From Halorientalis persicus (GTDB lineage: Archaea > Halobacteriota > Halobacteria > Halobacteriales > Haloarculaceae): a stretch of DNA of 48,560 nt. This document shows, one piece after another, positions 15,788-45,325 of the stretch. The stretch is taken from positions 1 to 48,560 of the forward strand of contig NZ_FOCX01000025.1 in NCBI RefSeq assembly GCF_900110215.1. The letters run 5' to 3'. Position 1 is the stretch's first letter; each line of letters opens with the position of its first letter. The translations under genes were made by a program, and so were the position numbers. Below the pieces are notes generated by a model. The model saw only the letters and a list, made by a program, of their open reading frames with translations, was not told the DNA's origin and searched no databases.

Positions 15788-16846
15788 GAGCGACCCGACC
15801 TCGTCGGGGATTTTGGGCATTGGTGTGCTTGGGGTTGGCCGTTCAGCGAACGGTTCTGGCGACTGCCGGTCGTACCATTTTCGAAGCCATGCTTCGACGG
15901 CGCCGTCTGCGATGGACATCAGTCGCGAGTCGGGCCAGAGATGGACTGGCAGATCATGCTTATCGCCTAATTCCTGAACCCACGCGTGGTGTTTTAGCGA
16001 GTAGCGCCGCCATGCGTCCCGATCGCGAATCTTGGCTAATTGGCTGCCAAGCTCATCGTGGCTGTGGTTCCAGGCCGCGTCGACGGTCATCTGAAAGTTG
16101 GCCCCGCGTTGGTTGATCGGCTCATGAAAGATGACGTCGGGATCAGCCGTCGCCACCTTTTTGAGCAGCGTCTCCATCTGGTCCCGGCTGTCGATTGACG
16201 GGTATGTTGGGGAGAGCGAGATGAACGTCGGGAAGCCGGCGTCGGCGAATTCTTTCAGGCCGTCGAGCCGGCTTTCTACTGGTGGCGCGTTCTGCTCTAT
16301 GGCGCTCACTGCGTCCTCGTCGAGCGTAGGGACTGAGGTCCCAATGGTGACGTAGCCGCGTGCTTGCTCGAATGAGTGCTGGTAGTGGTTTGCCAGCTTG
16401 GGATTCCGAGTGAGGACTCGAGTGTACTTCTCGTAGTCGCCAAGGATCTGGATCGTCTTGCTGCTGATATCTGCTGCTCGCGGATCCATGAAGGCGTCTG
16501 TATGGAACGAGATTCCGACAATCCCCTGCCCACCTTCGGTTTCTCGCCACGTACGCTTTCTCGAGAGTTTGCTTTCTAACCGTTCGGGGATATCGTCGCG
16601 ATAGAGCACGTAGTCACCCCACTCTTCCTGTCCATCGTCGACGTCGACCTGTTCTTTGAGCATTTCACCCCGCGTTCGGATATTGGGGGTGGAAGGGACG
16701 TAACAGAAAGAACATCCGTGAGAACAGCCACTGGCGACGTTCAGTACGTAATCGCAGAGGTACTTCTCATTCAGTCCCGATTTTGAAAGGATGGCTTTGG
16801 TCGGATCTTCTGCAGTCCGTGGTCTGTTGCTTTGACCGTCTGACAT
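15779..16846 (-). CDS. Radical SAM protein, spore-photoproduct-lyase-like (COG1533 type)
   Basis: The 355-residue protein carries CSHGCSFCYV (C41, C45, C48), the Cx3Cx2C cluster-binding motif of radical SAM enzymes in the SPL/Rv2578c-like group, preceded by YVLNVASG. Later blocks (GISFHTDAFMDP, RVLTRNP, GYVTIGTSVPTLDE and FISLSPTYPS) fit the TIM-barrel strands. Family knowledge: spore photoproduct lyase reverses thymine-dimer lesions; many relatives are of unknown function. Start ATG 16846 (MSDGQSN) avoids overlap with the methylase upstream (stop at 16867). Its place next to a DNA methylase suggests a DNA-directed role, either repair or base modification. Confidence 0.88.
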   Translation of the reverse strand: MSDGQSNRPRTAEDPTKAILSKSGLNEKYLCDYVLNVASGCSHGCSFCYVPSTPNIRTRGEMLKEQVDVDDGQEEWGDYVLYRDDIPERLESKLSRKRTWRETEGGQGIVGISFHTDAFMDPRAADISSKTIQILGDYEKYTRVLTRNPKLANHYQHSFEQARGYVTIGTSVPTLDEDAVSAIEQNAPPVESRLDGLKEFADAGFPTFISLSPTYPSIDSRDQMETLLKKVATADPDVIFHEPINQRGANFQMTVDAAWNHSHDELGSQLAKIRDRDAWRRYSLKHHAWVQELGDKHDLPVHLWPDSRLMSIADGAVEAWLRKWYDRQSPEPFAERPTPSTPMPKIPDEVGSLSL

Positions 16847-16866
16847 GGTTGTACTGACCCTGTGGG

Positions 16867-17856
16867 TCAGTCGTCTGACCACGCCCCAAGGCCGGATTGT
16901 TCGCTTTCAGTTTGGTCAGTTGGGACTACTGCTGAGTTGTAGCCGCCTTCCTTTCCATCGTTTTTCTGGTTCCACACAAGCTGTGTTTTCAGGTAGTCAA
17001 CCCGTTCGTTATACGCATTGATGTGATCACCCACCTCGGACTCAGACACGCCGAGACGGATGAGCAATTCTTCCAACTTCGATTTGTAATTGTAGAGCGT
17101 TTCAACCCAGAAGTGCGAATCATAGAGCGGAGACTTAGTCTTCTGTAGGGTGAGAAGAATTGTCTCGATACTGTGGTCTGGGAATGTAGCACGCGGTAAT
17201 GCGGCGATCTGGACGATATTTTCTCGAAGGAGTACGTCCCTGAACGGCGCAAATGTGTCCCGCAGGAGCGCCTGTTCGGGAAGAATGACTGACATCCAAC
17301 CGCCGACCTTCAGGTGGTTAATCATAGCTTCGGTGAAGGGGGCATACAGTGGGAATGATCCCTCTGTTGAGTTGTACTGCTCCCGGTATTGGTCGCGAAG
17401 ACCCGTGTCGATGTTTTTGTATCGAGAGTACGGCGGGTTCGCGATAGCGAAGTCGAACTTGGTGTCGAAGTCAGCGGTGAGGAAGTTCGTTTCTTTGATG
17501 GTGACGTCTCCGTGGACTGGCGTTTTCTCGGCCGTTGCTCCTGGCGGATATGAGGGTGTGTGGGCTCGACGTGAGTCGTCTGAAAGCGACGGGGTATGTG
17601 GCTCGGATTTACCGAACCGCTGGTCCAGAAATCCAGCCCGGTTCTCATTTGCCTCGACGAGGTGAGCGTCTGGAAGCGGCTTCCCTCTCACACTGCAGTA
17701 TCGTTTGACTGCTGCGAAGAGAGGGCCACGCCCTGCCCCCGGGTAGAGAAGATTTGTTTCGTTGTCGTCGTTGTTGTGAATGCAACTCAACAGTGAGAGC
17801 GCGACTTCATCACTGATTGCGGGCGGTGTTGGGACGAATCCATCTTCCGCTGGCAT
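16867..17856 (-). CDS. N6-adenine DNA methyltransferase
   Basis: The 329-residue enzyme has the SAM-binding motif I LLYPGAGRGPLFAAV (about 36-50) and the catalytic motif IV NPPY (140-143) in FDFAIANPPYSRYKN, in the order of gamma-class N6-adenine methylases. Later blocks (HLKVGGWMSVILPEQALLR, VQIAALPRATFPDHSIETIL) match motifs V-VIII. The C-terminal 90 residues are probably helical and could recognise the target. No restriction gene is linked. The start ATG 17856 is the only good candidate. It is the first of the modification genes and is probably co-transcribed with the radical SAM gene, 20 bases downstream. Confidence 0.92.
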   Translation of the reverse strand: MPAEDGFVPTPPAISDEVALSLLSCIHNNDDNETNLLYPGAGRGPLFAAVKRYCSVRGKPLPDAHLVEANENRAGFLDQRFGKSEPHTPSLSDDSRRAHTPSYPPGATAEKTPVHGDVTIKETNFLTADFDTKFDFAIANPPYSRYKNIDTGLRDQYREQYNSTEGSFPLYAPFTEAMINHLKVGGWMSVILPEQALLRDTFAPFRDVLLRENIVQIAALPRATFPDHSIETILLTLQKTKSPLYDSHFWVETLYNYKSKLEELLIRLGVSESEVGDHINAYNERVDYLKTQLVWNQKNDGKEGGYNSAVVPTDQTESEQSGLGAWSDD

Positions 17857-19580: not shown

Positions 19581-21437
19581 TTAGTCGTCCGAGTTGGCTC
19601 TGCCATTCCCTGCATTTTCTCCCGGTGTGGTTCCAGCGCTTGGAGTGTCACTGTCAGTGAACGAGAACAGCGTCGGATCGTGACTGGTCAGTAGGTGTTT
19701 GCAGAGTGCTTTTGCCAATGACACGGGGACTGCGTTCCCGATCTGTGCGGTCGTTTCAGTCTTGTTGCCGACAAACTCGTAATCGGAGGGGAAGCCTTGT
19801 GCACCCGCGAGTTCTTCCGGTTTGAGCATCCGATATCGAATATCTATCCCGAAGGGGTAGCACTCGGGGATCACGAGCGCGAATCGGTCCTTGGTGGTGA
19901 CGGTCGGGAGCGGTTCGTTGATCGGGTTGGGGCTTCCCTGCCCGTAGAACTCGTCGATGAACGGCTGAATTAGACCCGGCTGAGAGCCGGTTGCCGTGAC
20001 GGTGGGTAGTGGATCGTCGAGATCGTGGGTTCGTGGGCGCTGGCCAGCGCGCTCGCTGTAGAAGGGCACGAGGTAGGACTCGACCAGGTGTCCGTCATGA
20101 TTCTTCGCAGTGACAGTGTGAAGGGGTTCTTCACCCGGATTATACCCAGGGTTGCTGTGGAGTCCACGTTGCCGTCCGTTCCGCGGCAGGACGAATGGAT
20201 CTGGGTTGAGCATCTGGAGGGCCCCGGTTGTCGTAACGGTGTTCACGGGCTTCTCTGATGCTTTTCGCGGAGCGGCCCCGCTGTGCTGTCCGAGGATAAA
20301 CGGATCGGCGTTCAGGAGACTGACCGCGCCTCTCGTTGCGATGGTGGGCAGGGGCGATTCATCGACTGCCCGTGCCACTGAGTTCGAATGCTGGCCGAGG
20401 ACGTAGGGCGTTGCGAGCGCGAACTTTTCGCCACCGGCAGTAATGGTATCGAGGGGGGAATCGACGGGCTTGGCCGTACTGGTGCCGTAGTACTTGACGA
20501 GAAACGGTTCACACCGTTGTTCCATCACTTCGCCGGCGTTGGCTGCCGGGACTGGTCGGTCTTGTAGCTCCCGAACTTCGTCGCGAGTGATGCCGTCCAG
20601 GAAGTCGGCGAACGGTTCAAGCGAGTCGTCACAGTACCGTCGGAGCCCTTCTGCCACCCGGCTCATCGTCGTGTGCTTGAGCGGTTTCTTGTTGTTGGAG
20701 ACGCCCCGCTCCCAGATGCTCTGTCCGGGATCGTCCCAGTCGATGATTTCGCTGGCCGTCCGCCACGGTTTGGTGTCGCCGTGTCCGTCTTCGGAGTGCG
20801 TCGGGTCGGGGAACGTGGGCTTGCCGTCGCGACGGGCGACGATGAACAGCCGTTCACGGCTGGTCGCATCGCCGTAGTCTGCGGCGTTGAGAACTTTCCA
20901 GTCGACGCTGTACCCGTGGGCGTGGATGCTGTCGACCCAGGCGCTGAACGTTTCTCCGTTCCGCGATGGGGTTCCATCAGCCTCAAGCGGTCCCCAGCTG
21001 GCGAACTCCTTGACGTTCTCAAAGAGGACGATCTCGGGCTGGAGTTTCTGAATGAACGTCAGAACGTCCCACGCCGGCATTCTCTTCTGCTTGTCGGCGG
21101 GTTTGGAGCCACGTGCCGCGCTCCAGTGGGTACATTCGATGCCACCGCTGAGGATCTTCACATCGGGATTGGGGTCGTCGAATATCTCCCGCGGCTTGAC
21201 GTTCTGCACTTCGTCGTGGAAGTGACGGGCCCACGAGTGATTGGCAGCGTGGGTTTCCAGCGCCTTCTCGTCGTGGTTGATCCCGACCAAGTCGATACGG
21301 TCCTCGAGTAGTTCTCTGGTAGGCTCTGGGGCGTCGACGGCTTCCTCTTTGATGCCCTCGACGAGCCCCCAGCTGAGACCACCGCCGCCGCAGAACAGAT
21401 CCACGACGCGGATGGTGTTGTCACTGCTCTCTGTCAT
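19581..21437 (-). CDS. C5-cytosine DNA methyltransferase with repeat-rich target domain
   Basis: The 618-residue enzyme has motif I (VVDLFCGGGGLSWGL, 11-25), a motif IV in which the usual Pro-Cys is Glu-Cys (SGGIECTHWSAARG, 97-110; catalytic C102), motif VI (FENVKEF, 139-145), motif VIII (SRERLFIVARR), motif IX (RYRMLKPEELAGAQGFP) and motif X (QIGNAVPVSLA). Between motifs VIII and IX lie six copies of a repeat with the core P-L-P-T-V-T, at about 328, 362, 397, 438, 476 and 509, often ending in PF-V/I-L. Family knowledge: Glu-Cys variants with such repeats occur in phage and phage-like methylases. The longer size (typical 350-450) comes from this repeated region. It lies 30 bases downstream of 21468-22814. 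Confidence 0.94.
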   Translation of the reverse strand: MTESSDNTIRVVDLFCGGGGLSWGLVEGIKEEAVDAPEPTRELLEDRIDLVGINHDEKALETHAANHSWARHFHDEVQNVKPREIFDDPNPDVKILSGGIECTHWSAARGSKPADKQKRMPAWDVLTFIQKLQPEIVLFENVKEFASWGPLEADGTPSRNGETFSAWVDSIHAHGYSVDWKVLNAADYGDATSRERLFIVARRDGKPTFPDPTHSEDGHGDTKPWRTASEIIDWDDPGQSIWERGVSNNKKPLKHTTMSRVAEGLRRYCDDSLEPFADFLDGITRDEVRELQDRPVPAANAGEVMEQRCEPFLVKYYGTSTAKPVDSPLDTITAGGEKFALATPYVLGQHSNSVARAVDESPLPTIATRGAVSLLNADPFILGQHSGAAPRKASEKPVNTVTTTGALQMLNPDPFVLPRNGRQRGLHSNPGYNPGEEPLHTVTAKNHDGHLVESYLVPFYSERAGQRPRTHDLDDPLPTVTATGSQPGLIQPFIDEFYGQGSPNPINEPLPTVTTKDRFALVIPECYPFGIDIRYRMLKPEELAGAQGFPSDYEFVGNKTETTAQIGNAVPVSLAKALCKHLLTSHDPTLFSFTDSDTPSAGTTPGENAGNGRANSDD

Positions 21438-21467
21438 TGCTCACTTCCGTCGCACTGACTCAATTTC

Positions 21468-22814
21468 TCAGGCTGGTTTGAGGTCCTCAAACCGGTTCGG
21501 GAATCCGCACTCTGGGCAGTGATGAATCGTTTCGTTACCGACGATACGGGTTGATCCGTTGGGCGCGGTTCCACAGTGCTGACAGGCAAACGCGCTCGGT
21601 GTCGTACGGATTCGTGGATCGATGTTGGGGTGATTGTGCTGTTGGAGACAGTCCGTGACGATTTCGCTCATCGCCTTCCGGCCGCCGATCTCGAAATGGT
21701 CGGATAGGGAGTAGTTGTGTTTTGATTGCTGCCCATCGACGTCGTATACTGAGAGGAACGAGAGCCCACCTGGACCGCCAAGATCAGTCTCCGACACGTT
21801 CGCAGTCGTCGGGATGATCCGATTGAGTGTGACGAAGGGGTGGACCGGAATCCACCATGCGTTGACGATAACCGTCTCGCGGGCTACTCGGACAGCTTCG
21901 GAAAAGAGGGCTACACGCTCCTCGTACGGTATCTTCCACGGCGGGTCGGTGATGACGGCGTCGACGGCGCCGTCTTGGAGGGGGAGATTGCGACCGTCGC
22001 CAAGGTGTGTGGCTGCTGTCTGCCCCGTCCCCCCTCGATTCGTGTATTCTTTAGTGAGGTCGATTCGAATATCACCGAGGCGGTTGCTTCCGCAGCAGAT
22101 GTTCGCGACCGTGCCGGCGTCTGCAACTAACTGTTTGACCGTTTCGCGTAACTGCTCGTGCCACGCCCAGCCTTCTCGGAATCCGCGTTGTTCCTCGTCG
22201 GTGTCGAACGGACGGGGGAGTCTTCTCGGAGGGCCTGTTCCCCTGCCCTGCTGTTGCTGCATGACCACGCCCCCATCACCCCGTGTCTCTCCTGACTGAG
22301 GGGTCCAACTGTCTTCGAAGGTGGATTGGACCCGCGAAAATCGAAGATAGCTTTGCGGCGGTTCGAAGCCCAGTGGGTCCAATAGGTCAATCTGCTCCAT
22401 CTGTAGCCGGTCTGAGTCCGGGACCCATTTCGCCGAGGAAAGCAGCGTCCCGCCCGTCGCCAATAGTTCCGAAAGGCGGTGGAATTCGGTTGGCCGGGCG
22501 AACCATGCCATCTTCGACTTCGTATAGATGATCGAGTCGTACGTTGGCGACTCGTCTGGAAACCACTCGTTGGCCTTCACAGCATCGGCAGTCGTCGCGC
22601 TTGACACACGAACCGTGGGCTTGCGCCCAGTTACCTGTGAGACGACGTCGGCGTACTCTTGGGTACGGTCTTCGCATCCGCCGACGACAAGCGTCTCTCC
22701 GGAGACGTGCTTACCTAGGTAGTCTCGCTCTGCCGTCGCGACCGTATCGAGGGGGCCGGACAGGCGGCCGTGCAACAGGCCGCGATCGGCGTCAGAAAGT
22801 GGAATGGGGCGCAT
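21468..22814 (-). CDS. Two-domain DNA methyltransferase with DPPW motif and C-terminal zinc ribbon
   Basis: The 448-residue protein appears to hold two Rossmann-like units. The N-terminal one (TLVVGGCEDRTQEYADVV; YDSIIYTKSKM; ELLATGGTLLSSAKW) keeps the fold's outline but has no catalytic motif. The second (TVANICCGSNRLGDIRIDL about 235-252; LGDGRNLPL; AVITDPPWKIPYEERV, DPPW 290-293) matches N6-adenine/N4-cytosine methylases. A zinc ribbon ends the protein (CQHCGT at 411, CPECGF at 433). A glutamine-rich linker (VVMQQQQG) joins the units. Substrate is probably DNA given its neighbours, but an RNA substrate cannot be excluded. Start is ATG 22814. Confidence 0.85.
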   Translation of the reverse strand: MRPIPLSDADRGLLHGRLSGPLDTVATAERDYLGKHVSGETLVVGGCEDRTQEYADVVSQVTGRKPTVRVSSATTADAVKANEWFPDESPTYDSIIYTKSKMAWFARPTEFHRLSELLATGGTLLSSAKWVPDSDRLQMEQIDLLDPLGFEPPQSYLRFSRVQSTFEDSWTPQSGETRGDGGVVMQQQQGRGTGPPRRLPRPFDTDEEQRGFREGWAWHEQLRETVKQLVADAGTVANICCGSNRLGDIRIDLTKEYTNRGGTGQTAATHLGDGRNLPLQDGAVDAVITDPPWKIPYEERVALFSEAVRVARETVIVNAWWIPVHPFVTLNRIIPTTANVSETDLGGPGGLSFLSVYDVDGQQSKHNYSLSDHFEIGGRKAMSEIVTDCLQQHNHPNIDPRIRTTPSAFACQHCGTAPNGSTRIVGNETIHHCPECGFPNRFEDLKPA

Positions 22815-22832
22815 CTTTAGACTCTCTGGTGA

Positions 22833-23468
22833 TTAGTCGGCCAGTTCTTGCGGCATCGCGACGAGCGAGCCGAACGTCTCCTGGGCATTGTAGACGCTCG
22901 TCAGCCACTGGGCGACGAGCAGCAGGCAAATCTCGGCCTCCTTCTCGTCTTTCACGGTATAGCCGCGTCCGTGCTTGCCCCCGTTCTCGTGGATTGTCTG
23001 GTCGATGTCGGCAACGTGGTCCCGATCGTGGAATTTGAGGACCGTGTGCGGGTCGGTTCTCGTCTGTTCCGAAAGCGACTCCGGCAGCGGGAGGTGTCCG
23101 AATCGGGTCTCGTTCGTGAACTGTCTGAGATCGCTCCGGGGAGTGACGACAGCGGGGAGTTCGTCGTGGTCGCCGCTCGCGACGATTCGGTGTGCCCGGT
23201 ACATCTTCTGGCCGGGATGGTGTCCCCACGGATCGATTGGGAGACACTCGACCGTCGTTCCGCTTTCGTGGACTAACCGAACGAGTAGGCAGATTCGCTT
23301 CACTTTTGCGGGCTGGCGGAAGCCGGCTTTGTCGACGTGCCAGTCTTCGCTCGTGTGTTGATCGATGTACCAAGCCACATCTTTGATCGTGTGGCCGGTC
23401 TGGTCGTCTCGCGGGGGGACGTGTCCGTCTTGAACGTCCTCTCCCGAGATGGTCCGGAAGTCAGGCAT
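22833..23468 (-). CDS. Hypothetical protein
   Basis: The 211-residue product is unrecognised. It contains HTIKDVAWYIDQHTSEDWHV, beta strands (ICLLVRLVHESGTTVECLPI), a histidine-rich middle (WGHHPGQKMYRAHRI; HTVLKFHDRDHVADIDQTIHENGGKHG) and a hydrophobic C-terminal helix (EICLLLVAQWLTSVYNA). The clustered His and Asp residues could bind metal, but I cannot assign a nuclease or other class. It is sandwiched between the DPPW methylase (18 bases downstream) and the Dam-like methylase (40 bases upstream), so it likely takes part in the same modification process. Confidence 0.75.
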   Translation of the reverse strand: MPDFRTISGEDVQDGHVPPRDDQTGHTIKDVAWYIDQHTSEDWHVDKAGFRQPAKVKRICLLVRLVHESGTTVECLPIDPWGHHPGQKMYRAHRIVASGDHDELPAVVTPRSDLRQFTNETRFGHLPLPESLSEQTRTDPHTVLKFHDRDHVADIDQTIHENGGKHGRGYTVKDEKEAEICLLLVAQWLTSVYNAQETFGSLVAMPQELAD

Positions 23469-23508
23469 GGTTCAATTGGATCGCTTAGTCTCAATCCTGC
23501 GCCGGCGA

Positions 23509-24564
23509 TCAGGGGGCAACTACGAGTTGTTCTGCGGGGGGTGATCGGTCCCACTGCCCGTCGTTCTCGACGGTGACGGTGATATCGCCGAGGTGCCGGA
23601 GGTTCTGTTGGACGGCATACAGTCGTCCCTCTTCGTCGACGCAACTGAGCGACACGGCTTCCGGATCTTCGGGGTCGAAGATGGATTCGGTTCGCGGGTC
23701 GTCGACTGCGATAACGTCCGCCTGGACTTCTGGACGCAATTCGGCGGGGACGCCGAGTGTGTCGCGGAACTCGATAGTGAGGCTGGTTCCTCGCCGTAAC
23801 TCGCCAAGGTCGATCGGGCGGGCAGCGTGGTCGCCCGTTGCGAGCGAAACCTTCACCCCCGGCGCTTGAGCGTTCGGCCCAGCGGTCGGCTGGACAGCAG
23901 AGGCCCGCGCCGGAGCGACGCCACCGTCCGCGGTGTGGATATCGTTGAGCGAGCCCTGGTCGGCGAGTGTCTTGATTTCGTGACGCTCCCAGAGCGTCCC
24001 GATGTCGTCGAAGGTTTCCAGAAGACTGTCGGGAACGGCCCCGAAGGCGGCCAACAGCGGGGCGAAAGGCGATGACCCCGACGTATTGCTGAAACTGAGC
24101 CGTTGATTCAGGGCGCACAGATAGTCCGCGTCTGCGATGTGTTCCTCGAACCAGTCGGCTGAAAGCCCCGTCGACGCGATGAGACAGACGATCAATTGCA
24201 CACTTTCTCGGTTAGCTTCGGTGTGGATTTTCTCGGCCCACTCGTCGATCACGCCCCGCTCGAACGGGGGATTCACGTAGACCGCTCCAAACCAGTCTTG
24301 CTTGAGGCCGTTGTCGGCAGGCGTGAATCGGTGTTCTGCGATTGGGAATGGTTCCGTCTCACTGCGCGTGGCGGGGTCCAGGTCGAAACCGCCTACCGCA
24401 TCGGAGAGTCGCCGAGCCAGCCAGCGTGGCGTCCCCCGTTCGTTGCTCCCGCCCACGCCGGGCATCTGTTCAGATCGAGTTTCGTGCGCTGAGCTCTCGT
24501 CCGTCTCGGTCTGACTTGGGCCGAAGTTGGAGAGTGTGGTTGACTGCGACTTGTCGGTCATCAC
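23509..24564 (-). CDS. Phage-type N6-adenine DNA methyltransferase (Dam-like, PF05869 type)
   Basis: The 351-residue protein carries the pattern of phage Dam-like methylases in order: TPRWLARRL (45-53), FDLDPAT (60-66), HRFTPADNGLKQDWFG (about 78-93) and VYVNPPF (95-101) as motif IV. After residue 190 comes an extra ~160-residue region, beta-rich toward the end (GTSLTIEFRDTLGVPAELR, GDITVTVENDGQWDR), that is not part of the usual ~170-residue enzyme and may recognise DNA or partners. Two adjacent ATGs (24564 and 24561) are possible starts. The presence of a phage-type enzyme supports virus ancestry for this region. Confidence 0.92.
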   Translation of the reverse strand: MMTDKSQSTTLSNFGPSQTETDESSAHETRSEQMPGVGGSNERGTPRWLARRLSDAVGGFDLDPATRSETEPFPIAEHRFTPADNGLKQDWFGAVYVNPPFERGVIDEWAEKIHTEANRESVQLIVCLIASTGLSADWFEEHIADADYLCALNQRLSFSNTSGSSPFAPLLAAFGAVPDSLLETFDDIGTLWERHEIKTLADQGSLNDIHTADGGVAPARASAVQPTAGPNAQAPGVKVSLATGDHAARPIDLGELRRGTSLTIEFRDTLGVPAELRPEVQADVIAVDDPRTESIFDPEDPEAVSLSCVDEEGRLYAVQQNLRHLGDITVTVENDGQWDRSPPAEQLVVAP

Positions 24565-24659
24565 CCGGCCCGCAGACCCGCAACGTCCCGATACCAGCCC
24601 CCCGTGTCTCCAGTTGCGATATACGTGGGATTCTGAGTCTCTTCGGTTTGCTTGCTCTC

Positions 24660-25070
24660 TCAGTCGGTTCGGCGGTATTGAGTCCGCGTCTCGTAATCGA
24701 TGACCTTCGATGGGTCGACGTTGGTCCCATCTACAGCATCGATGAACTGTCTGGCGTTAACAGTCACTGCCTCTGCTGGATCCGCGTCGGCGTCCTCGAG
24801 CATCTGCAGGGCAGTCGATTTATCTATCACTTTGGGGTGTTCACTTCCTACCCTTCGTACTCCGGCCACGTTGTCTCCGACGTCCACTCCGTCATCTAAT
24901 GCAGCCTCTATCACTTCCTGACGGGCTTTTTTAGCCTTTTTCTCTAACCGTCTGAACGCATTTCGCATCTCCGCAAGCGCCCGGACATTACTCGTGTCGA
25001 TGCCGTCATCAATTACGGCCTCGGCGTAGTTGGCCGTATCTTGGAGTTTTCCGGGGTCGGGGTGTACCAT
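24660..25070 (-). CDS. Small coiled-coil hypothetical protein
   Basis: The 136-residue protein has a central basic helix (RALAEMRNAFRRLEKKAKKA, with RQEVIEAALDDG after it) that probably forms a coiled coil, and an acidic C-terminal half (KSTALQMLEDADADPAEAV). ATG 25070 (MVHPDPGKL) is preferred to 25097, as the extra residues contain a short unrelated stretch. The basic-helix pattern could bind nucleic acid. Family and function are unknown. Confidence 0.66.
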   Translation of the reverse strand: MVHPDPGKLQDTANYAEAVIDDGIDTSNVRALAEMRNAFRRLEKKAKKARQEVIEAALDDGVDVGDNVAGVRRVGSEHPKVIDKSTALQMLEDADADPAEAVTVNARQFIDAVDGTNVDPSKVIDYETRTQYRRTD

Positions 25071-25253
25071 CGTGTCTAGATCGTTAGAGTAGTCCACCTG
25101 TATAGCTTACTGCAATCTCTGGGGCCGGGATGTTCATCGACTGCGCTTTCAAACACATTTCCAAAGACCACAGAGCGTGTAGAGAAAGGCATCGGAGGTT
25201 CCTATTTGGAGAGGTTATCGTGCAGAAACCCGATGGATTCACGTCGGGAATTA

Positions 25254-25901
25254 TTATTTGACCGGGGCCACGACGACCGCTCGTTCTGGTCCTTCGAGCA
25301 ACAACTCCTCGTGCCCGCGGAAGTAGATCGTGTACCGATCCGGATCGTAGAGCATGGCTCGTTCGGTCACCCATCCCAGCGCCCGTTTGAGAAGACCTTC
25401 TCTGAATAGGGGTCCGAATTCCTTGTTATGGAGCGTCCCGCCTTCTTGGAGCTCCTCCCAGTCCTCGAAGCCGTATGCTTCGGGAGGGCTGATCTGCTTT
25501 TGAGCAGTCGCTTTGAGGTGGTCATCGTTGTCGACGACCTTCCCTATCCCTCTGCCCGCTCCTGGAACGATGGTAGCCTTCTTGACGGTTGTCGTTTCTC
25601 CCTTTTCCCATACCACCTGCTCAGGAAGATTGGGTAACGGTAGTCCGTTGTGTTGCTCCACCACTTCTTCCAGGTGCTCTCGTGCCGACGGGCGTGACAG
25701 GAACGTCTCGCCACATTCGCAGCTTATCGTCTCGTTCTGACCGAAATAGCCGTCAGTGTCCTGTACTTCAATGATGTTCCCCCCTTCGATCAATATCTCG
25801 TCTTCGAAGTACTGCTGGTACTCGATAGAGATGCTATGCTTTGCGGCGGGGACGTCTAGCGAAACGGTCCCGTCTTCGGGCTGGTTCGCGCTTTCGCTCA
25901 T
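25254..25901 (-). CDS. Hypothetical protein with a C2H2-like zinc finger
   Basis: The 215-residue product includes ISCECGETFLSRPSAREHLE, followed by QH, a possible single zinc finger with two Cys and two His. It then shows a charged region (KGETTTVKKATIVPGAGRG) and a C-terminal part with KRALGWVTERAMLYDPDRYT and a beta strand (AVVVAPVK). No family is known to me. It shares a run of minus-strand genes with 25939-26550 (37 bases upstream) and is likely co-transcribed with the TGT-like gene. Confidence 0.7.
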   Translation of the reverse strand: MSESANQPEDGTVSLDVPAAKHSISIEYQQYFEDEILIEGGNIIEVQDTDGYFGQNETISCECGETFLSRPSAREHLEEVVEQHNGLPLPNLPEQVVWEKGETTTVKKATIVPGAGRGIGKVVDNDDHLKATAQKQISPPEAYGFEDWEELQEGGTLHNKEFGPLFREGLLKRALGWVTERAMLYDPDRYTIYFRGHEELLLEGPERAVVVAPVK

Positions 25902-25938
25902 GACTCACTCCGGTGGCTGTACCCCAATGCTCGACGAG

Positions 25939-26550
25939 CTACAGGTCCGCCAGCGAGGATTGTGACGTGTCTTCTTGATCGGGGACATCGACGTCGACGG
26001 ACCGGGACTTCGGTTTCGACTCGATCGGGGCCGATGCCGGGTATTCGGTGGGGGCGTTCACTGACTGCAACCAGTCGAACGTTTTCACTACCTGATGTTC
26101 ACTCCCGGCTGCAGTTTTGTTCTCACCCGTACAGTTCTCTCTGAGCGCTCCGATGGACGTGTAGCCGTGATACGCAGTATAGAACCAGAGATGTACCTCG
26201 ACGCTATCGCGTAGCAGATACTCGAAAAGCGGCGTCCTCGTGGCGGCCTGCCGCTTGGCTTTCCATTCGGTGAGCGACACGCATTCGACGCCGACGTGCT
26301 GATGGTTGTACCCAGCGACGGCGAGGCGTTGCTCCGATGCAGATGTGAGGCGACGGAGGGGTCCGAAGCCGTCGAACCCGTGCTCGACCGGGACGACGTC
26401 TTCTCCGAGCGCCTGGGCAGCTGGCGTCAGCCGGTGCGGGATTTCGTCAATCCCGCGTTCTTCCTCCGTTGCCCAACCGCAACGATCACAGATTGGCATC
26501 GATCCGTCGCCACAGATTGGACACTCCCGATCGTCGGTCTCGGTTGCCAT
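25939..26550 (-). CDS. Zinc-ribbon hypothetical protein
   Basis: The 203-residue protein begins with CPICGDGSMPICDRCGW, a compact zinc ribbon, continues with a region holding LTPAAQALGEDVVPVEHGF, and then a mixed part (HVGVECVSLTEWKAKRQAA, DSVEVHLWFYTAYHGYTS). The C-terminal 50 residues are disordered and acidic. It is unrecognised. It begins 32 bases after the stop of the TGT-like gene 26583-27917 on the same strand; coupling to that enzyme is plausible. Confidence 0.68.
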   Translation of the reverse strand: MATETDDRECPICGDGSMPICDRCGWATEEERGIDEIPHRLTPAAQALGEDVVPVEHGFDGFGPLRRLTSASEQRLAVAGYNHQHVGVECVSLTEWKAKRQAATRTPLFEYLLRDSVEVHLWFYTAYHGYTSIGALRENCTGENKTAAGSEHQVVKTFDWLQSVNAPTEYPASAPIESKPKSRSVDVDVPDQEDTSQSSLADL

Positions 26551-26582
26551 CGTTCACCTCTGCTGCCGTTCCGCAACCTGCA

Positions 26583-27917
26583 TTACTGGATCTCCGAAAG
26601 CGTCGTCTGCTCGCTTGCGTCGGCCTGATGACTGACCGCGGCCTGGGCAGTTGGTTCCCCTACATTCGCGAGGGGGTTATGGACCTCCTCCTCGTCGACG
26701 ATATCGGCTCCGCAGTCAGGACAGCAGTAGGTTTCACCATCTTCGATGAGCGTATCGAAGGGGAGCTCCGTTCCACAGTCGATGCAACGGTAGTCGTATG
26801 GGCCGTAGAGCGCTTGTTCTCGGTTAGACAGCTGTAGGTCCCAAATGTTGAGTGCAGTCCCCTCACAGTGCCGACAGCGGCCCGAGAGCTTGGCCGCTGG
26901 ACGGCCTGGGTCCAAGACCTTTCCACAGAGGCATTTGATTCGGACGTACTCGTCTACGTCGTAGTCTCCTGAAGTGTAGTCTCCAATGCTAGTGACTGTC
27001 ACTCCGGTCGTATCGACGTCGGGGTTGATTGCCGCGGCTTCTGAAATAACAGCATCGACGTCACGGCGGTAGTCGCGATAAGCGATGAGCATGTTCACCC
27101 AGTTGAAGGAGGGATACTCGGGTTTGCGGTAGTTGACCCACTCGTCTTGGAAGTGTTTGGGGCCCTCGTGGGCTGTCGTTGTCGCGTCGTAGTAAAGCCG
27201 AGAGTCCCACGCATTGCTATCGACACTATCGAGTGCAGCAAGGATGTCTGGTGAGTTCATCACGGTCTGCTTGACGCCAAACCCGTGCAGATCGACGCGA
27301 GAGGGGAGTGCGTCACGGACCCGTAAGACTGTATTGCGGATTCGTTCGGTTTGGCCGCGCCGGCACACGCTACCGATCCCCATCTTGTCGGTGATCAGTC
27401 CGTGGTCCTGCAAGAGATCCAAATGCTCCAGGTACTCTCGCACGTCGTAGCCTTGGAGTACGGCGACAGGGTCGGCGTCGAGTCCGCGGTTCGATGCAGC
27501 TTCGATCGTTTCGATGTGGTCGCGGAGTGTCCACTGTTGATGTTGCGTCACTGACCGGTCCCACCGGCGGAGTAGATCCGGTTCGCAGGCCCAGTCCCTG
27601 AGTGCGAAATGCTCGATCAGGTCGTCACGCTCTTCGATAAACGTGATATAATCAGAAATCGAGGTCTCGTATTCAGGGTTTGAGGAAAGCGTCGAATAGC
27701 CGCCTGAGTCCAGAATCCAACTGGGCCCGTCCCAGGGTTCGTTCATCTTCGTCGCGTAGGACACCATCGCGTATTCCGGGGCGTTGAAAGCAGCTGGATC
27801 AAACGGAGTTTCATCGAGTGTTTCCGTGTGGTCGTCTTTGGACAAAGCCCGAAGTGCCTTCCTGGAAGACCCAGATGAGACTGTCCAGACGAAGTCCAAT
27901 TCATCGGGTGAGGGCAT
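26583..27917 (-). CDS. tRNA-guanine-transglycosylase-like protein (DpdA-like), with two C-terminal zinc ribbons
   Basis: The 444-residue protein follows the TGT barrel motif by motif: WILDSGGYSTL (67-77) for the base-binding DSGG, VAVLQGYDVREYL (151-163) for the VQG loop, MGIGSV (179-184) for the IGGL loop, LHGFGVK (210-216) for the MGVG strand, and DSVDSNAWDSRLYYDA (230-245), which should hold the nucleophilic aspartate. The C-terminus has two zinc sites (CLCG 329-332 with CRHC 348-351; CIDC 378-381 with CCPDC 398-402). Family knowledge: TGTs swap guanine for 7-deazaguanine in tRNA, and DpdA relatives do so in DNA of phages and of a halovirus. A DNA role here is inferred from the methylase neighbours. 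Precursor genes are absent, but archaeal hosts make preQ0 for archaeosine. Confidence 0.85.
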   Translation of the reverse strand: MPSPDELDFVWTVSSGSSRKALRALSKDDHTETLDETPFDPAAFNAPEYAMVSYATKMNEPWDGPSWILDSGGYSTLSSNPEYETSISDYITFIEERDDLIEHFALRDWACEPDLLRRWDRSVTQHQQWTLRDHIETIEAASNRGLDADPVAVLQGYDVREYLEHLDLLQDHGLITDKMGIGSVCRRGQTERIRNTVLRVRDALPSRVDLHGFGVKQTVMNSPDILAALDSVDSNAWDSRLYYDATTTAHEGPKHFQDEWVNYRKPEYPSFNWVNMLIAYRDYRRDVDAVISEAAAINPDVDTTGVTVTSIGDYTSGDYDVDEYVRIKCLCGKVLDPGRPAAKLSGRCRHCEGTALNIWDLQLSNREQALYGPYDYRCIDCGTELPFDTLIEDGETYCCPDCGADIVDEEEVHNPLANVGEPTAQAAVSHQADASEQTTLSEIQ

Positions 27918-30315: not shown

Positions 30316-31266
30316 TCAACTGAGCGCCGTTGTCCACTTCGTCTTCGTCCAGTCGTGACTGTAGACCGTGTCAGAACTGGCTGTGACTGTCTTCTCACCC
30401 TCGTACTCGAAGTCGGCGGCCTTGTAGCACGTCCCGTCGTTCCCGTCGATACCGGCGAGGGCGATGAGCCGGTCATAGTCCGTGTTGTGGCGCAGCCAAC
30501 CCCGAACCCGTGCGAGCATCCACGAACTCGTGTTCTGTGGCCGGTTGGGATGGTTCGCAAGACGGGTCAGATATAGTGTGCCGTCGTAATTGTCGATCGA
30601 GTTGTTGTGTGGGTGTTCCACGACCGCGGCCGAGGTCAGGTAGCCGTCGACGGTCGCGATGAATGCGTACCGCCAGCCGTGGACGCCATTTTGTCGGTGC
30701 CAGACCTGTCCATCCGCTGCTCCGCAGAGAAACTGGTTGACGATTCGATTTGCTCCCTCTCCGTGAATCCGTGCAAAGGCGAGATCACTGCACGTCTCCG
30801 CCGTTGGGTACGCATCTTCAGCACCGATCTTTGGCTGTTCCCAGCGTGAGTATGCCCATTCGGGGCTATCCCCTGGACGTTCATTGGGGGTTGGATGATG
30901 AGGCATTTCGGGCGGTGGCGTTGTTCGCCAATCATGGTCAGCAGAGTGGACTGCAGCTGCCAGAGGGGCCGCCTTGCAGGGGAGTCGGTTGGCGAACTGT
31001 GTGTACCAGACACCGTCCTTCCGGTGAAACCCGACGATACGGTGTCGAGTGTACGTTGCGAAGACCTCTTTGACGTGAGCGTCTCCATTTTCCCCTTCGT
31101 ATGTATGTTCTTGCGTGTCCGAGACTGTGCGGTGGAATATGTCACGCTCGCCCAGAGACGATGGCGGGTGTTGGACTTCGCCGTCGTTATCTAAGAAGTC
31201 CTGTTGTTCGGACTGTCGGAACGTGGTCAGTGCCCGCGTTCCGCCCTGCTGAGAGGTCTTCGGCAT
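30316..31266 (-). CDS. Mom-like GNAT-fold DNA modification protein
   Basis: The 316-residue product ends in a GNAT-like domain that follows the phage Mu Mom pattern: YAFIATVDGYLTSAAVVE (200-217), LYLTRLANHPNRPQNTSSWM (231-250), DYDRLIALAGIDGNDGTCYK (263-282) and AADFEYEGEKT. The block L-x-R-x3-H/D-P-N and the late GT-x-Y-K/Q-A-A-[DN]-x-x-Y-x-G are what I recall as the Mom-family signature. Family knowledge: Mom converts adenine in phage Mu DNA to an N6-acetamido-type modified base and blocks host restriction. The first ~190 residues are an extra region not found in Mu Mom (231 residues total). ATG 31266 (MPKTSQQ) fits the four-base gap to the upstream gene. The DNA substrate is inferred. Confidence 0.72.
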   Translation of the reverse strand: MPKTSQQGGTRALTTFRQSEQQDFLDNDGEVQHPPSSLGERDIFHRTVSDTQEHTYEGENGDAHVKEVFATYTRHRIVGFHRKDGVWYTQFANRLPCKAAPLAAAVHSADHDWRTTPPPEMPHHPTPNERPGDSPEWAYSRWEQPKIGAEDAYPTAETCSDLAFARIHGEGANRIVNQFLCGAADGQVWHRQNGVHGWRYAFIATVDGYLTSAAVVEHPHNNSIDNYDGTLYLTRLANHPNRPQNTSSWMLARVRGWLRHNTDYDRLIALAGIDGNDGTCYKAADFEYEGEKTVTASSDTVYSHDWTKTKWTTALS

Positions 31267-31270
31267 GATA

Positions 31271-31579
31271 TTAGGGAAGCGAGCAGTCGATTGTATCGTC
31301 TTGCGGTGCTCGTCGGATTCGGATCTCGTCGTCGACGAGTTCAATTCGTTTGATGCCCGCTGTTTCCAGAACGGCTTCTGCGACGGAGGGACCGTTTACT
31401 TCGATGTCTGCAGTGGTCACTTCTCCCTCGTACAGTGCCGGGTGTTGGAGGCTGGGGCCGTCGAATTCGTAGGCGTAGCCGAGGATTTCCCAGTTCCGCT
31501 GGTCGGTGTGGAGCGTTTCGCCGAGGATGGCGTATCGAGTCGTCGTGTCGTCTTCCGATCGGGTTGATGGTTCGGTCAT
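31271..31579 (-). CDS. Small hypothetical protein
   Basis: The 102-residue product (MTEPSTRSEDDTTTRYAILG at the start) has a beta-rich body (WEILGYAYEFDGPSLQHPAL, EVTTADIEVNGPS) and a C-terminal helix (AEAVLETAGIKRIELVDDE). It is unrecognised. ATG 31579 is preferred over the longer frame, which is a shifted reading of the upstream gene. It lies four bases before the Mom-like gene and could be its partner. Confidence 0.68.
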   Translation of the reverse strand: MTEPSTRSEDDTTTRYAILGETLHTDQRNWEILGYAYEFDGPSLQHPALYEGEVTTADIEVNGPSVAEAVLETAGIKRIELVDDEIRIRRAPQDDTIDCSLP

Positions 31580-32669: not shown

Positions 32670-33587
32670 TCATGTAGAGAAGGCTCCAAGCGTCTCCTGG
32701 TGTTCGTCAGCGTTGGAAACAGCGTCTCGGGACTGGAACCGGAACTCGGACGTTTCGAGATACTCACGGTTGGTGTCGATAGCTATCCATCCCCGATCGT
32801 GTTCGGCGGCGACGGCGCCGACGACATTCGATCCGGCGAAGGGATCGAGAATGACGTCACCGGGTTTGGAGACGCGTGGAACGAGGTACTCGACCAGCTT
32901 GCTGGGGAAGCGTGCAGGATGCCAGTCACGGCCTGCTTCTCGGCACATCTGGAGATATTTCGTATTCGATGCGGTGTTTGAGATGGAGAGCGCGGCTGGT
33001 TCTCTGTCCAGCATGACCTCGACGAACCGGTAGTAGGACAGGAGAGCGCTCCCATCGAGTGGGGAGGGATCGCAGAACTTCGAGAGATGCTTTCGGAGTG
33101 TCGCAGTGTTGATGCCGAGCATGGTCGGGTCTGGGAGACGACCTGGGTCTGGCCGGGCATCGCGAAGCCCGAGTTTTGCGCGAACGAATTGGTCCAACGT
33201 GCGCTTTGCATCGACGAAAGTGTCTTTCGATACCGACGGTGATCGGAGTGTTGCCAGATGTGGTAGTGGGGGCAAATCGCGGTCCGAGGGGTGCGTCTGT
33301 AGGTCCGATGGCTGAGCGACGAAGTTGCCCGGAATTTCGAAGTCACTCGGATGGGCGGCATCGGGAACTGTTCCGGCAGACCGGTTGGACAGCCCCCAAG
33401 CTGTGTCGTCGACGTCGATGTTGAACGAGCCTTGGACCGGGGCCTTCAGCGGCGGGGCGGAATCGTTGTCGCCGCCGAGTGGTGTGAACCAGTGGATTGG
33501 ATTGGCCATGCACCGAACGCGCGTTTTCCGGTTTTTCGCGTATTCCTGCGAGTCGTTCGGATCTGTGCCGGGATTATACCACGTCAC
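32670..33587 (-). pseudogene. C-terminal half of a split beta-class (N4-cytosine-type) DNA methyltransferase
   Basis: This 305-codon frame begins at a GTG three codons after an in-frame TGA and immediately enters what is the middle of a known methylase type: TWYNPGTDPNDSQEYAKNRK, with the recalled full-length block being a Y-W-Y-N-P stretch following motif IV. It ends with HPARFPSKLVEYLVPRV, then DVILDPFAGSNVVGAVAAEH (motif I), then RGWIAIDTNREYLE. This motif order, catalytic motif before SAM motif, is that of beta-class enzymes. The other half is at 33769-34317, with a ~180-base gap and a frame break between. It could still work as a two-chain enzyme if both are translated. Confidence 0.8.
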
Positions 33588-33656
33588 AGCGTGTCATAGA
33601 AGTCTTCACATGGTACAGTCATATTCATTATCTTTTTAGAGAGTAACAGACGTAGA

Positions 33657-33682
33657 AGAGCGTGCACTAGGTGCACGACTCT
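33657..33682. repeat. Inverted repeat in the gap of the split methylase
   Basis: AGAGCGTGCAC (33657-33667) and GTGCACGACTCT (33671-33682) are inverted copies differing by one bulged base, with three bases between. It lies in the 180-base non-coding gap between the two methylase halves, in AT-rich flanking sequence unlike the coding halves. It could be the remnant of an insertion or a regulatory site. Confidence 0.5.
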
Positions 33683-33768
33683 TAGAATCGTTCAAAGATA
33701 GGAATTTTACTCCTGTATAGTGACCATTCTTGCTCAGTTGGCGTTATTCGACGTAGCGACTGTGGTTT

Positions 33769-34317
33769 CTATGGAGCCGCAGACAGCAGGCTTGGAGCCG
33801 GTAACGCTGAATCCGTCGATAGCCATGAGAACCGTTCTATGACACCCTCGGTCAGTCTGCCGACGTGGCGGGCCCGCTGGGGCGGAGAGACCGTGTCGGT
33901 TGTCTCGGGGGGAGAGTATCCTCCTTCAGTACCATCGGACTGGTGGGCGGAGAGTGGGCTTACAGAGACGTTCTCGGAGCCACAGAAGACAGCGGGGAGT
34001 GTGTGTTGGTAGGTGGTCCGAACTGGTTTCTCTGGTTTCCAGCCGCCACCAACCTCGATGAGAATGCTCCCCGTAGGCTTCACGACCCGTGCCAATTCCG
34101 CGGCGAAGGGATAGAACCAATCGAGGTAGTCGTCTGCGGTCGGATTCCCGTATTCGAGGGGATCCGCGAGTCCGAATGGTGGTGACGTGATGACGGCGTC
34201 GACGCTGTTCTCTGGGATATCCGGAAGTGATTCCCGACTGTCTCCGTGGTATGCAGTCCCGTTTTCTCTTGTATATACGGGACTACTGGAAATAGCAGTC
34301 TCTGGTTCTGTCGCCAT
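33769..34317 (-). pseudogene. N-terminal half of a split beta-class DNA methyltransferase
   Basis: The 182-codon frame holds a start (MATEPETAISSS), YHGDSRESLPDIPENSVDAV, then ITSPPFGLADPLEY with the SPPF catalytic motif, then DYLDWFYPFAAELARVVKPT and LIEVGGGWKPEKPVRTTYQ, which is the expected start of the second third of the protein. After PAVFCGSE the frame changes into a Ser/Pro/Arg-rich sequence with no family likeness, running to a stop at 33769. About 80 codons of foreign-looking sequence thus replace the rest, whose matching continuation is 32670-33587. The break point is near 33990. Confidence 0.8.
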
Positions 34318-34392
34318 GCTACTGCCATGGCCAGTCCACAATCTCTAGCCCAGTCTATCGTCCAGAGATCGTACTGAAAGGTGACCAGAGAG

Positions 34393-34530: not shown

Positions 34531-35457
34531 TTAGTAGCTTTGAATCCCGGATTGTGTTGTTGCCTGATCGTTCCCACAATCGGTTTTCCCAGTGGTGTTT
34601 GGTGTGAGTTGGGACCGATGCTGGCGCTGTTCGGTTGGAATGTCGTCGATCATGTCCTGCACTGTATCGAGATTTGTTTGGGTGTGGTAGGTCTCTTCCA
34701 GACAGGGATCGTCGACGCGGTCGGTCAACATATAGTTCGCCATCAGTAGGACGCTCTTGGCGAACTGGCCGTTAACCGTCGAGATGTCGGTACCAGAGGG
34801 CAGCGTCAGCTGGCGTTGTTTCCATTCCTTGTCGGGAATCTGCTTGTTGACAATCGCGAACTCGGCGGTCTTAGTGTCGAAACTGTCGATGAGGTTCGGT
34901 TCGTTCCGAATCGCGCGGATCATGGTGAGTGAGGTCCCGACACCGAAGGCGTGGAGGTAGGTGTGATCACTGACGGCGTCGCTAATCGCCCTGATTCGAC
35001 GGACCTGCTTCTCCGGGTCGTTGAGTGACTGCAATCCGCCGATGGCCAGCCGGCTGAATTGCTGGTAGAAGGACTCGTGGGCTCCGTAGTGTTCGACGTA
35101 TGGCGGTTGGAGAACAGGCATGATCTCGGGCCGGCGGCCGTCGACGTCCTGGTAGCGGTTGAGGAAGTCGACGAGCGATTCAAGGGTCCGCTCGGGCTCG
35201 CCGGGATAGTCTTTCGGGATGACGATGTCGGCGCTCTGGTTGAGAGCAGATTCGAGTACGTCTTCGTTGGCCATGTTCTCGTCTTCGTAGGCAGAGTCGA
35301 TGATCAGTCGCGTACACATCGCCCGCATGTCGTTGTGGGCTTTGCCGGCGTGCATCAGGCGATTCGGGTACCGATATCGCGGGATGTAGGAGGCGGCGAA
35401 GACGTCGACGTAGGACGAACCGACGATCTCGTTGATGTAGCTCTGTTCACTCCGCAT
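34531..35457 (-). CDS. Compact tRNA-guanine-transglycosylase-like protein (DpdA-like)
   Basis: The 308-residue product is a second, divergent TGT-like barrel. Motifs in order: LIIDSAYED (51-59) replacing DSGG, IMPVLQPPYVEHY (112-124) for the VQG loop, LAIGGLQS (137-144) for the IGGL loop, YLHAFGVGTSLTMIRAI (167-183) for the MGVG strand, and LIDSFDTKTAEFA (189-201), with D194 the probable nucleophile. The canonical CxCx2C...H zinc site of TGTs is not present. Family knowledge: short TGT-like proteins without the tRNA-binding extension are typical of DpdA enzymes acting on DNA. Start ATG 35457 is chosen from an 11-base overlap with the stop of 35447-36241. The relation to the 26583 protein is only at fold level. 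Confidence 0.8.
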   Translation of the reverse strand: MRSEQSYINEIVGSSYVDVFAASYIPRYRYPNRLMHAGKAHNDMRAMCTRLIIDSAYEDENMANEDVLESALNQSADIVIPKDYPGEPERTLESLVDFLNRYQDVDGRRPEIMPVLQPPYVEHYGAHESFYQQFSRLAIGGLQSLNDPEKQVRRIRAISDAVSDHTYLHAFGVGTSLTMIRAIRNEPNLIDSFDTKTAEFAIVNKQIPDKEWKQRQLTLPSGTDISTVNGQFAKSVLLMANYMLTDRVDDPCLEETYHTQTNLDTVQDMIDDIPTEQRQHRSQLTPNTTGKTDCGNDQATTQSGIQSY

Positions 35458-36241
35458 CACGATCACCCCCGGAACCTGCAACTGCACTGCCCGCTTCGGT
35501 GAGCGCCCACCGGTCTGCTGTTGGATCCAGCGTTGCTGTATCGACGCCGGGATCGGTTACGAACCCGACGTGGTAGAGATGCGACTTTAGATGCTGGAAC
35601 TGGCCACTGTAGCCGTTACCGCTCGTGAGCGGATGTTCGCGACCGTTAGGCGAGTGAATGACTGGTGGCTTCTGATCCTGCTGTGCGAGTTCCCAGCCGT
35701 TCTGGAGACAGATCGAACTGGTGAGAGAGATATTCTGTTCGGTGAGATGGGTGACGAGATCGGGAAGCGTGACTGCGTTTGAGATGCCGACGGCGCCACA
35801 GTCCGCGAGGGCAGTGAGAATTGAGTCGGCAGGTAGGTAGTGCTGATAGACGCGCTGGCCGAGACGGGCCCAGAACGGCGCTTTCTTTGCGAGACGGGCG
35901 TGGGATCTTTTGAGGTCTTCGAGGGCGCTGAGAGCCGCCGTTGACGTCTCGAATTCGTCCGTCGCGACGGCGACGACCTGCTGACCGACAGATCCGACCT
36001 CGAATTCGCGAGTGATCAAGCCCAATTCCTCGGCACCGAGTCGGGCGTGTCCGACTGTCTGAACGAGCGAGTCGGTGATGTGCCGAGTGGTTGCTCCGTC
36101 GGCATACACCGCGAGTGGGACGCCGAGGTAGTTTTTCGGATGGCTGAGGTTCAGTTGTGCGATGTGGGGCGTTGTCGGATCGTGCTCCGGCTCGGTGTAA
36201 CCCGCGTCTGGGTCTCGGGGAGATGGTTCTGTCTGTGGCAT
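35447..36241 (-). CDS. Hypothetical protein, coupled to the compact TGT-like gene
   Basis: The 264-residue protein is unrecognised. It has NLSHPKNYLGVPLAVYADGA near its start, a middle with TAALSALEDLKRSHARLAKK, a helical section (LPADSILTALADCGAVGI; VTLPDLVTHLTEQNISLTSS) and an end that looks like a winged-helix tail (HLYHVGFVTDPGV, WALTEAGSAVAGS). Haloarchaeal winged helices often close with a DPTADRWALTE-type segment, so it may be a DNA-binding protein. Its stop overlaps the TGT-like gene by 11 bases, which points to coupled translation and a shared job. ATG 36241 (MPQTEPSP) is preferred over 36250. Confidence 0.68.
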   Translation of the reverse strand: MPQTEPSPRDPDAGYTEPEHDPTTPHIAQLNLSHPKNYLGVPLAVYADGATTRHITDSLVQTVGHARLGAEELGLITREFEVGSVGQQVVAVATDEFETSTAALSALEDLKRSHARLAKKAPFWARLGQRVYQHYLPADSILTALADCGAVGISNAVTLPDLVTHLTEQNISLTSSICLQNGWELAQQDQKPPVIHSPNGREHPLTSGNGYSGQFQHLKSHLYHVGFVTDPGVDTATLDPTADRWALTEAGSAVAGSGGDRDAE

Positions 36242-36391
36242 ATGGTTCACCAGCGACCAGCTGACTCAGTTCACCGACAGAGCCCCAAGCTGGCGAGAGC
36301 AATCTGGGACTACTGCGGATTCCGCAGTGTCGAGGATTCTCTGAGTGCTTTGATCGATGGCATTGGAACTGGGATGAAACAGTGGGGGTGG

Positions 36392-42697: not shown

Positions 42698-42730
42698 ATT
42701 AAGTGGGTCGGGGTTGAGGTATGCAATCAT

Positions 42731-45281: not shown

Positions 45282-45286
45282 CATCC

Positions 45287-45308: not shown

Positions 45309-45325
45309 ATCCCGAGGTTGGGATA

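Follow-up and report, generated by a model that had tools for sequence, protein, structure and literature searches.

The gene at positions 26583 to 27917 (minus strand) of the window, which is the whole 48,560-nucleotide stretch of Halorientalis persicus DNA analysed here, encodes a member of the broad DpdA family. The product, P0001, is a TGT-like protein of 444 amino acids, placed by PF23859, phrog_1279 and a match to the TGT fold. P0001 is probably a DNA guanine transglycosylase that inserts preQ0 made by the host into the DNA of its element, as a safeguard against restriction. Computation establishes the family, the fold, the active-site residues, the gene surroundings and the pathway genes of the host; from these we infer DNA as the substrate, preQ0 as the base, evasion of restriction as the outcome, and a role for the zinc ribbons in the tail of the protein. 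The enzyme type is known; the new details are its extra tail of zinc ribbons and the presence of another TGT-type enzyme in the window.

Family, fold and active site of P0001

The reading frame opens with ATG and is judged real from a paralogue on contig C33 of the same genome (54% identity over 370 amino acids); in the first 300 aligned codons, dN is ~0.40 and dS ~2.7, the latter close to saturation. P0001 scores well above the gathering cut-off of the Pfam DpdA family, PF23859 (90.5 bits, E 1.3e-25; cut-off 27), and matches phrog_1279, labelled "queuine tRNA-ribosyltransferase" (110.7 bits, E 1.3e-31). The PADLOC DpdA model gives 18.4 bits, and the NCBIfam DpdA equivalog NF041059 gives 23.5 bits, far under its cut-off of 200, indicating that P0001 belongs to the broad DpdA family and is not the DpdA of bacterial dpd islands. 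Neither PF01702 nor a PUA domain was matched in a Pfam scan at E 0.1.

A first-pass annotation had called the protein TGT-like on the order of its motifs. Indeed, DSGGY (D70), VLQGY (Q155, G156), IGS (G182) and HGFGVK (H211, G214) follow one another in sequence, ahead of DSVDSNAW (D233, nucleophile-like). Invariant columns, an alignment to the host archaeosine transglycosylase (arcTGT) and pLDDT values delimit a catalytic TIM-barrel core at approximately residues 50 to 238 (27204..27770, minus strand), which holds D70, D108, Q155, G182, H211, G214 and D233. All of these, together with G156, are among 12 columns that are invariant across 16 relatives. In the profile alignment to the host arcTGT, D70 falls on the DSG aspartate and D233 on the aspartate of LFDSAAY, with D108, Q155, H211 and G214 in register, although this is a single-sequence comparison of low statistical weight (probability 12%, E 0.0025). 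By TGT enzymology, we take D70 to be the general acid/base and D233 to be the nucleophile.

An AlphaFold2 model built from 16 sequences has a mean pLDDT of 66, with ten-residue block means of 86 to 98 at residues 71 to 180, mostly 84 to 98 at residues 71 to 230, and below 60 in the tail. The best 50 Foldseek matches listed for this model are all TGT structures (best E 2.9e-9), and VIA-align against solved TGTs reaches a best Z of 18.9 over 280 residues (5.0 Å, 11% identity). The comparison with archaeal TGT that the annotation had proposed gives a Z of 18.6 for both 1j2b and 1iq8 (277 to 281 residues, 16% identity). The annotation would have abandoned its reading for a model without a TIM barrel or for the loss of both aspartates; the model matches the TGT fold, and D70 and D233 are both present. 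The solved DpdA 7ui4 was tried as a sequence relative and reached only E 0.91, so no relationship is claimed; its absence from the 50 matches listed in each fold search (Foldseek and VIA-align) excludes nothing.

Ribbons and PIP-like peptides in the C-terminal tail

Two C-terminal ribbons had been placed after residue 325, and at the level of cysteine motifs both are found there. Ribbon 1 (residues 329 to 351; 26865..26933, minus strand) reads C329-x-C331 ... C348-x2-C351, and ribbon 2 (residues 378 to 402; 26712..26786, minus strand) reads C378-x2-C381 ... C399-x2-C402, with C398 as an alternative to C399. Zinc binding is predicted from these motifs. Both ribbons are modelled at a pLDDT of ~40 to 58 and their profile matches lie below cut-offs, as with Zn_ribbon_8 against ribbon 2 (19.7 bits, cut-off 34.4). 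Residues 186 to 328 contain zero cysteines, so P0001 has no CxCxxC at the TGT zinc position, unlike the host arcTGT, which carries this motif after its nucleophile.

The tail was compared across 33 non-redundant relatives (<80% identity, P0001 included). With the degenerate ORF L015 set aside, 23 rows are archaeal and 9 come from bacterial viruses; the position in the tree was used to assign some viral contigs to the archaeal rows. Ribbon 1 occurs in 6 of the 23 archaeal rows, and ribbon 2 solely in P0001 (1 of 33). The six ribbon 1 rows fall together in the tree as one moderately supported group (82/86; 79% of bootstrap trees). As read from the sequences, ribbon 1 marks one DpdA subgroup and ribbon 2 is a private addition in P0001; the pair noted by the annotation looks like local embellishment. 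Its further idea, that the ribbons replace the TGT zinc site, does not hold. CxxC and CxC pairs are absent altogether from 12 of the 23 archaeal rows, indicating that losing the zinc site did not depend on acquiring ribbons. In five archaeal DpdA relatives (L010, L012, L013, L048 and L065), it is the N-terminal end and not the C-terminal one that bears ribbon-like CxxC pairs. A module common to ribbon 2 and the methyltransferase at 21468-22814 was suggested by eye and is not claimed (E 0.065 among 1854 ORFs).

P0001 ends in QTTLSEI(Q). The heptapeptide QTTLSEI (residues 437 to 443; 26589..26609, minus strand) is a degenerate PIP-like peptide that fits a relaxed pattern only, and P0001 lacks the strict form, defined as Q-x-x-[LIM]-x-x-[FYW] in the final 20 residues. 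Of the 23 archaeal DpdA rows, 9 have a strict tail, as does 1 of the 9 rows from bacterial viruses, against 2 of 295 host-chromosome ORFs (greedy calls, at least 120 amino acids). The count is 4 of 44 for ORFs of the window, 2 of 41 for those of C33, and 8 of 340 for the remaining ORFs at 24 DpdA loci, these eight including two homologues of the second TGT-type protein described below (TGT2). One-sided Fisher tests give p 5e-10 for archaeal DpdA versus host and p 0.003 for window versus host, values that overstate independence because the rows are related. Over 2000 rounds of shuffling, the tails gave on average 0.17 strict forms per 23 and never more than 3. None of the six ribbon-bearing rows has the strict form; L061 ends in QATLANI and L017 in QTTLPNQ. 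Excerpts of PMC3504372 describe Haloferax polymerase PIP motifs in which a less bulky hydrophobic residue replaces the second phenylalanine, and a shallow PCNA pocket, which leaves room for a degenerate form such as that of P0001; binding stays putative. Within the window, strict tails belong to two methyltransferases (16867-17856 and 32670-33587), TGT2 (34531-35487) and a 501-aa protein (12517-14022).

Gene neighbourhood and a second TGT-type protein

P0001 heads a run of eight co-directional genes (19581..27917, minus strand) with gaps of 18 to 156 nt, presumably co-transcribed. Adjoining it is a 203-aa protein with N-terminal CxxC pairs and the C terminus QSSLADL (25939..26550, minus strand; phrog_6332, 22.8 bits). 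The run also holds a Dam-type N6-adenine methyltransferase (23509..24564, minus strand; PF05869, 45.5 bits), a probable methyltransferase with a C-terminal zinc ribbon (21468..22814, minus strand; weak Methyltransf_25 and DZR matches, all below cut-off) and a C5-cytosine DNA methyltransferase of 618 amino acids (19581..21437, minus strand; PF00145, 137.6 bits). Elsewhere in the window, likewise on the minus strand, are an Eco57I/N6 DNA methyltransferase with the PIP-like C terminus QSGLGAW (16867..17856; PF07669, 58.2 bits) and a Mom-like protein (30316..31344) that lies just above the PF25680 cut-off (29.6 bits, cut-off 27.1) and matches phrog_1384 (38.1 bits). An N6/N4 DNA methyltransferase (32670..34341, minus strand) is divided between two ORFs, 33769-34341 and 32670-33587, the latter matching PF01555 (60.4 bits) and ending in QETLGAF. 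TSPPFG and DPFAGS motifs were picked out by eye in this split enzyme; the catalytic motif is in one ORF and the SAM motif in the other, and the gene is possibly disrupted.

This setting bears on the substrate. The first-pass annotation had favoured DNA on the strength of the ribbons; that direction is upheld, and family and gene context argue for it better than the ribbons do. The run with its Dam-type and C5 methyltransferases, the Mom-like protein and other methyltransferases of the window, the lack of a PUA domain among the Pfam matches, and the PIP-like tails of archaeal relatives argue for P0001 as a DNA transglycosylase. A tRNA-modifying TGT paralogue carried by the element would share its superfamily with arcTGT and could use the same free base, but arcTGT and an ArcS-like protein are already encoded by the host, P0001 is without a PUA domain, DpdA is its best family, and its neighbours are DNA-modification enzymes, all of which makes a role on tRNA very improbable.

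Thirty-seven of the window proteins were scanned against Pfam, ten also against NCBIfam, phrog and PADLOC, and ten, partly others, against phrog. A ParA was found (Pfam). No preQ0 biosynthesis genes were seen among the 37. No viral structural genes were recognised among the proteins scanned, apart from matches to a coiled-coil SMC-like protein (tape-measure and minor-head families) and one head-protein match at E 0.012, suggesting that the DpdA-bearing DNA is a plasmid or other mobile element. The genes at 42584-48074 (an IclR regulator, an AMP-dependent ligase and an acyl-CoA dehydrogenase) resemble host metabolism, and the element may end near 42 kb. An RdfA (rod-determining factor A; 38835-39467; PF21811, 260 bits) lies between TGT2 and this host-like right end. 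Two TnpB-type proteins with a Cas12f1-like TNB domain are encoded at 10869-12113 and 45326-46645. The radical SAM protein at 15779-16882 was considered as a QueE and rejected, its CxxxCxxC cluster differing from the QueE motif; its best matches are phrog_13321 and, below cut-off, SPL.

TGT2 (34531..35487, minus strand; 318 amino acids, C terminus QSGIQSY) is a second TGT-superfamily protein, 6.6 kb from DpdA. A conserved partner of 267 amino acids (35447..36250, minus strand) overlaps its start, and the pair recurs on C33 (35% identity). Taken alone, the TGT2 of the window is below every Pfam cut-off (PF01702, 14.2 bits; cut-off 26.3) and sub-threshold for phrog_1279 (16.4 bits); its homologue on C33 (46% identity) passes PF01702 with 29.7 bits. 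Further, a five-sequence TGT2 profile matches the DpdA profile (probability 95%, E 2.4e-8), and an iterated search from TGT2 reaches the host arcTGT (E 1.7e-6). The 50 Foldseek matches listed for a TGT2 model are all TGTs, which is supporting evidence only, as the model is poor (mean pLDDT 49), and the TGT2 profile found no match among PDB sequences. The annotation, correct as far as TGT-like went, did not name DpdA, missed TGT2 and the Mom-like gene, and left the published orphan haloarchaeal DpdA unmentioned.

QTRT1 and QTRT2 work as a pair on tRNA. By analogy, P0001 and TGT2 might form a two-enzyme or heterodimeric DNA transglycosylase in which one subunit would bind DNA or recruit the clamp and the other would exchange the base. 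TGT2 is present on both DpdA-bearing contigs of the host genome (the window and C33), its homologues lie directly upstream of DpdA on viral contigs L047 and L048 and on the Halobaculum plasmid L027, and its D64, D93, H179 and D204 are invariant in five homologues. Set against this, the two genes are well apart in the window, and at the seed-model threshold the other DpdA loci examined gave no TGT2, the only match being DpdA itself; we regard such a pair as rather unlikely. A third TGT-like protein, on C33 (L038:17690-18880; 28% identity), has a strict PIP-like tail in which QQHLGAF is followed by three further residues, and a scan of viral contigs with it gave no match.

Within the class, 14 of 391 genomes contain a relative of P0001 (E ≤1e-5), and within the family 9 of 146 do (E ≤1e-10), both counts including the host genome and the two samples overlapping. 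Among viral contigs, a single-protein scan with P0001 found no close relatives and a profile scan found 17; the scan of genome contigs gave a single locus. Mom-like proteins lie near ribbon-bearing DpdA in four of six lineages (the window, C33, L074 and Haloplanus-type plasmids). None was found at the ribbon lineages L020 and L081 or at any ribbonless-DpdA locus in a search at E ≤1e-4 of the fetched loci except 18 host stretches (L090-L107), absences that are unequally strong because flank lengths differ. On a Haloplanus plasmid (L021:17259-23141), DpdA stands with XF1762 (Mom-like), DUF6610 and DUF6884, possibly a larger 7-deazaguanine cassette. DUF6610 was suggested by eye as a further TGT relative, and profile comparison was negative (E 0.3-0.6, probability ≤0.2%). 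C33 (L039:12250-17979) and the Haloplanus plasmid (L021:2908-8152) both carry AAA ATPase and VWA proteins alongside DpdA.

Such companions raise the question of whether P0001 serves a self-marking restriction system instead of restriction evasion. Bacterial dpd islands are restriction systems that mark self DNA (excerpts of PMC6884629 and PMC11888242), and AAA_5 and VWA proteins are found on C33 as well as an AAA ATPase and VWA protein near DpdA on the related plasmid; apart from the TnpB-type proteins, the window proteins that were scanned gave no match to a nuclease, a helicase or DpdB. We consider this quite unlikely.

Proposed role and comparison with known DpdA systems

As the annotation had supposed, the archaeosine pathway of the host can supply preQ0. 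The host genome has queC, two PTPS (queD) genes, one of them adjoining queC, a Radical_SAM ORF between queC and the PTPS gene that is probably queE from its position, arcTGT and an ArcS-like protein. In the proposed reaction, D233 would attack C1' of deoxyguanosine in DNA with D70 as the general acid/base; guanine would leave and a 7-deazaguanine base enter, most likely free preQ0 from this pathway. Ribbon 1, and in P0001 ribbon 2, may be added modules behind the barrel that contact nucleic acid or protein. The modified base would mark element DNA beside adenine and cytosine methylation, and probably a Mom-type adenine modification, protecting it from cleavage by restriction enzymes.

The choice of base is less secure. 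P0001 could insert G+, preQ1 or an unknown purine, or another enzyme of the element could elaborate dPreQ0. Four different bases occur in viruses with DpdA or preQ0-pathway genes (excerpts of PMC6884629), and plasmids of the ribbon subgroup carry DUF6884, a domain of DpdC according to excerpts of PMC11888242. A regular-expression scan of window and C33 ORFs of at least 80 amino acids found no DUF6884-like pair of CxxxK and LSAxxG, and the window proteins that were scanned gave no QueF-like match. We consider a different or further elaborated base rather unlikely.

Several points weigh against the preferred reading of P0001 as a preQ0-inserting DNA transglycosylase. Its nearest phage relatives are mycobacteriophage DpdAs, and Orion, with DpdA only and a host lacking preQ0, has unmodified DNA, so that preQ0 use by this branch is putative; its tail is only degenerately PIP-like in a subgroup devoid of the strict form, and its ribbons are low-confidence in the model. 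A more speculative and rather unlikely reading is that archaeal plasmids and viruses encode a system coupled to replication: the ribbon-tailed DpdA, TGT2 or both would be recruited to the sliding clamp through their PIP-like tails and would exchange guanine for 7-deazaguanine in new DNA at its exit from the fork. Methyltransferases tethered to the clamp and the Mom-like enzyme would act together with them, and three bases of the genome would be modified.

These findings extend predicted 7-deazaguanine modification of DNA to archaeal plasmids. A ribbon-tailed DpdA, TGT2, a Mom-like protein and at least four methyltransferases in one element is a layout not found in the papers searched. Open-licence literature yielded no paper pairing DpdA with "zinc ribbon" or with PCNA and none naming DUF6610 or XF1762, and excerpts of PMC12418951 and PMC10058572 contain nothing on DpdA. 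More interesting as leads than the ribbons are TGT2, the Mom-like protein and, in the wider family, the PIP-like tails. The tails make it testable how a DpdA gets to DNA instead of tRNA, a question to which the barrel alone gives no answer.

An orphan haloarchaeal DpdA fed by host preQ0 is not a new idea and is already in print (PMC8651126). Excerpts of that paper propose that HRTV-29 uses its own DpdA with host preQ0, and excerpts of PMC6884629 propose that the DpdA of Haloarcula vallismortis modifies HVTV-1. Both are haloarchaeal and without preQ0 genes of their own, with host preQ0 as the proposed source, and P0001 is likened to them by description only; tblastn of INPHARED phages with P0001 and with L044 gave no Halorubrum virus among the matches listed. 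The excerpts of PMC6884629 also show that phage CAjan cannot insert 7-deazaguanine into its DNA without DpdA. In Rosebush, by the same account, dPreQ0 amounts to ~28% of G, and the DNA of Orion, which has DpdA only and a host without preQ0, is unmodified.

Mycobacteriophage DpdA (PF23859/phrog_1279) resembles P0001 in the barrel core, the aspartates, and the Q-G and H-x-F-G motifs (~35% identity over 170 to 180 amino acids). The DpdA of phage Pops has 258 amino acids and no tail, against the 444 residues of the tailed P0001, and Pops and L058 (2 of the 9 bacterial-virus rows) retain a CxxC near the TGT zinc position that P0001 lacks. The archaeosine tRNA-guanine transglycosylases share its fold at low identity. 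Closer are the plasmid DpdAs of Natronosalvus, Haloplanus, Halobellus, Halorientalis and Halorarius, which are 40 to 46% identical over 80 to 83% of P0001. In the Haloplanus type, DUF6610 and DUF6884 lie close to DpdA, and the 25-kb locus yielded no TGT2. All five share ribbon 1 with P0001, whereas ribbon 2 sets P0001 apart from them.
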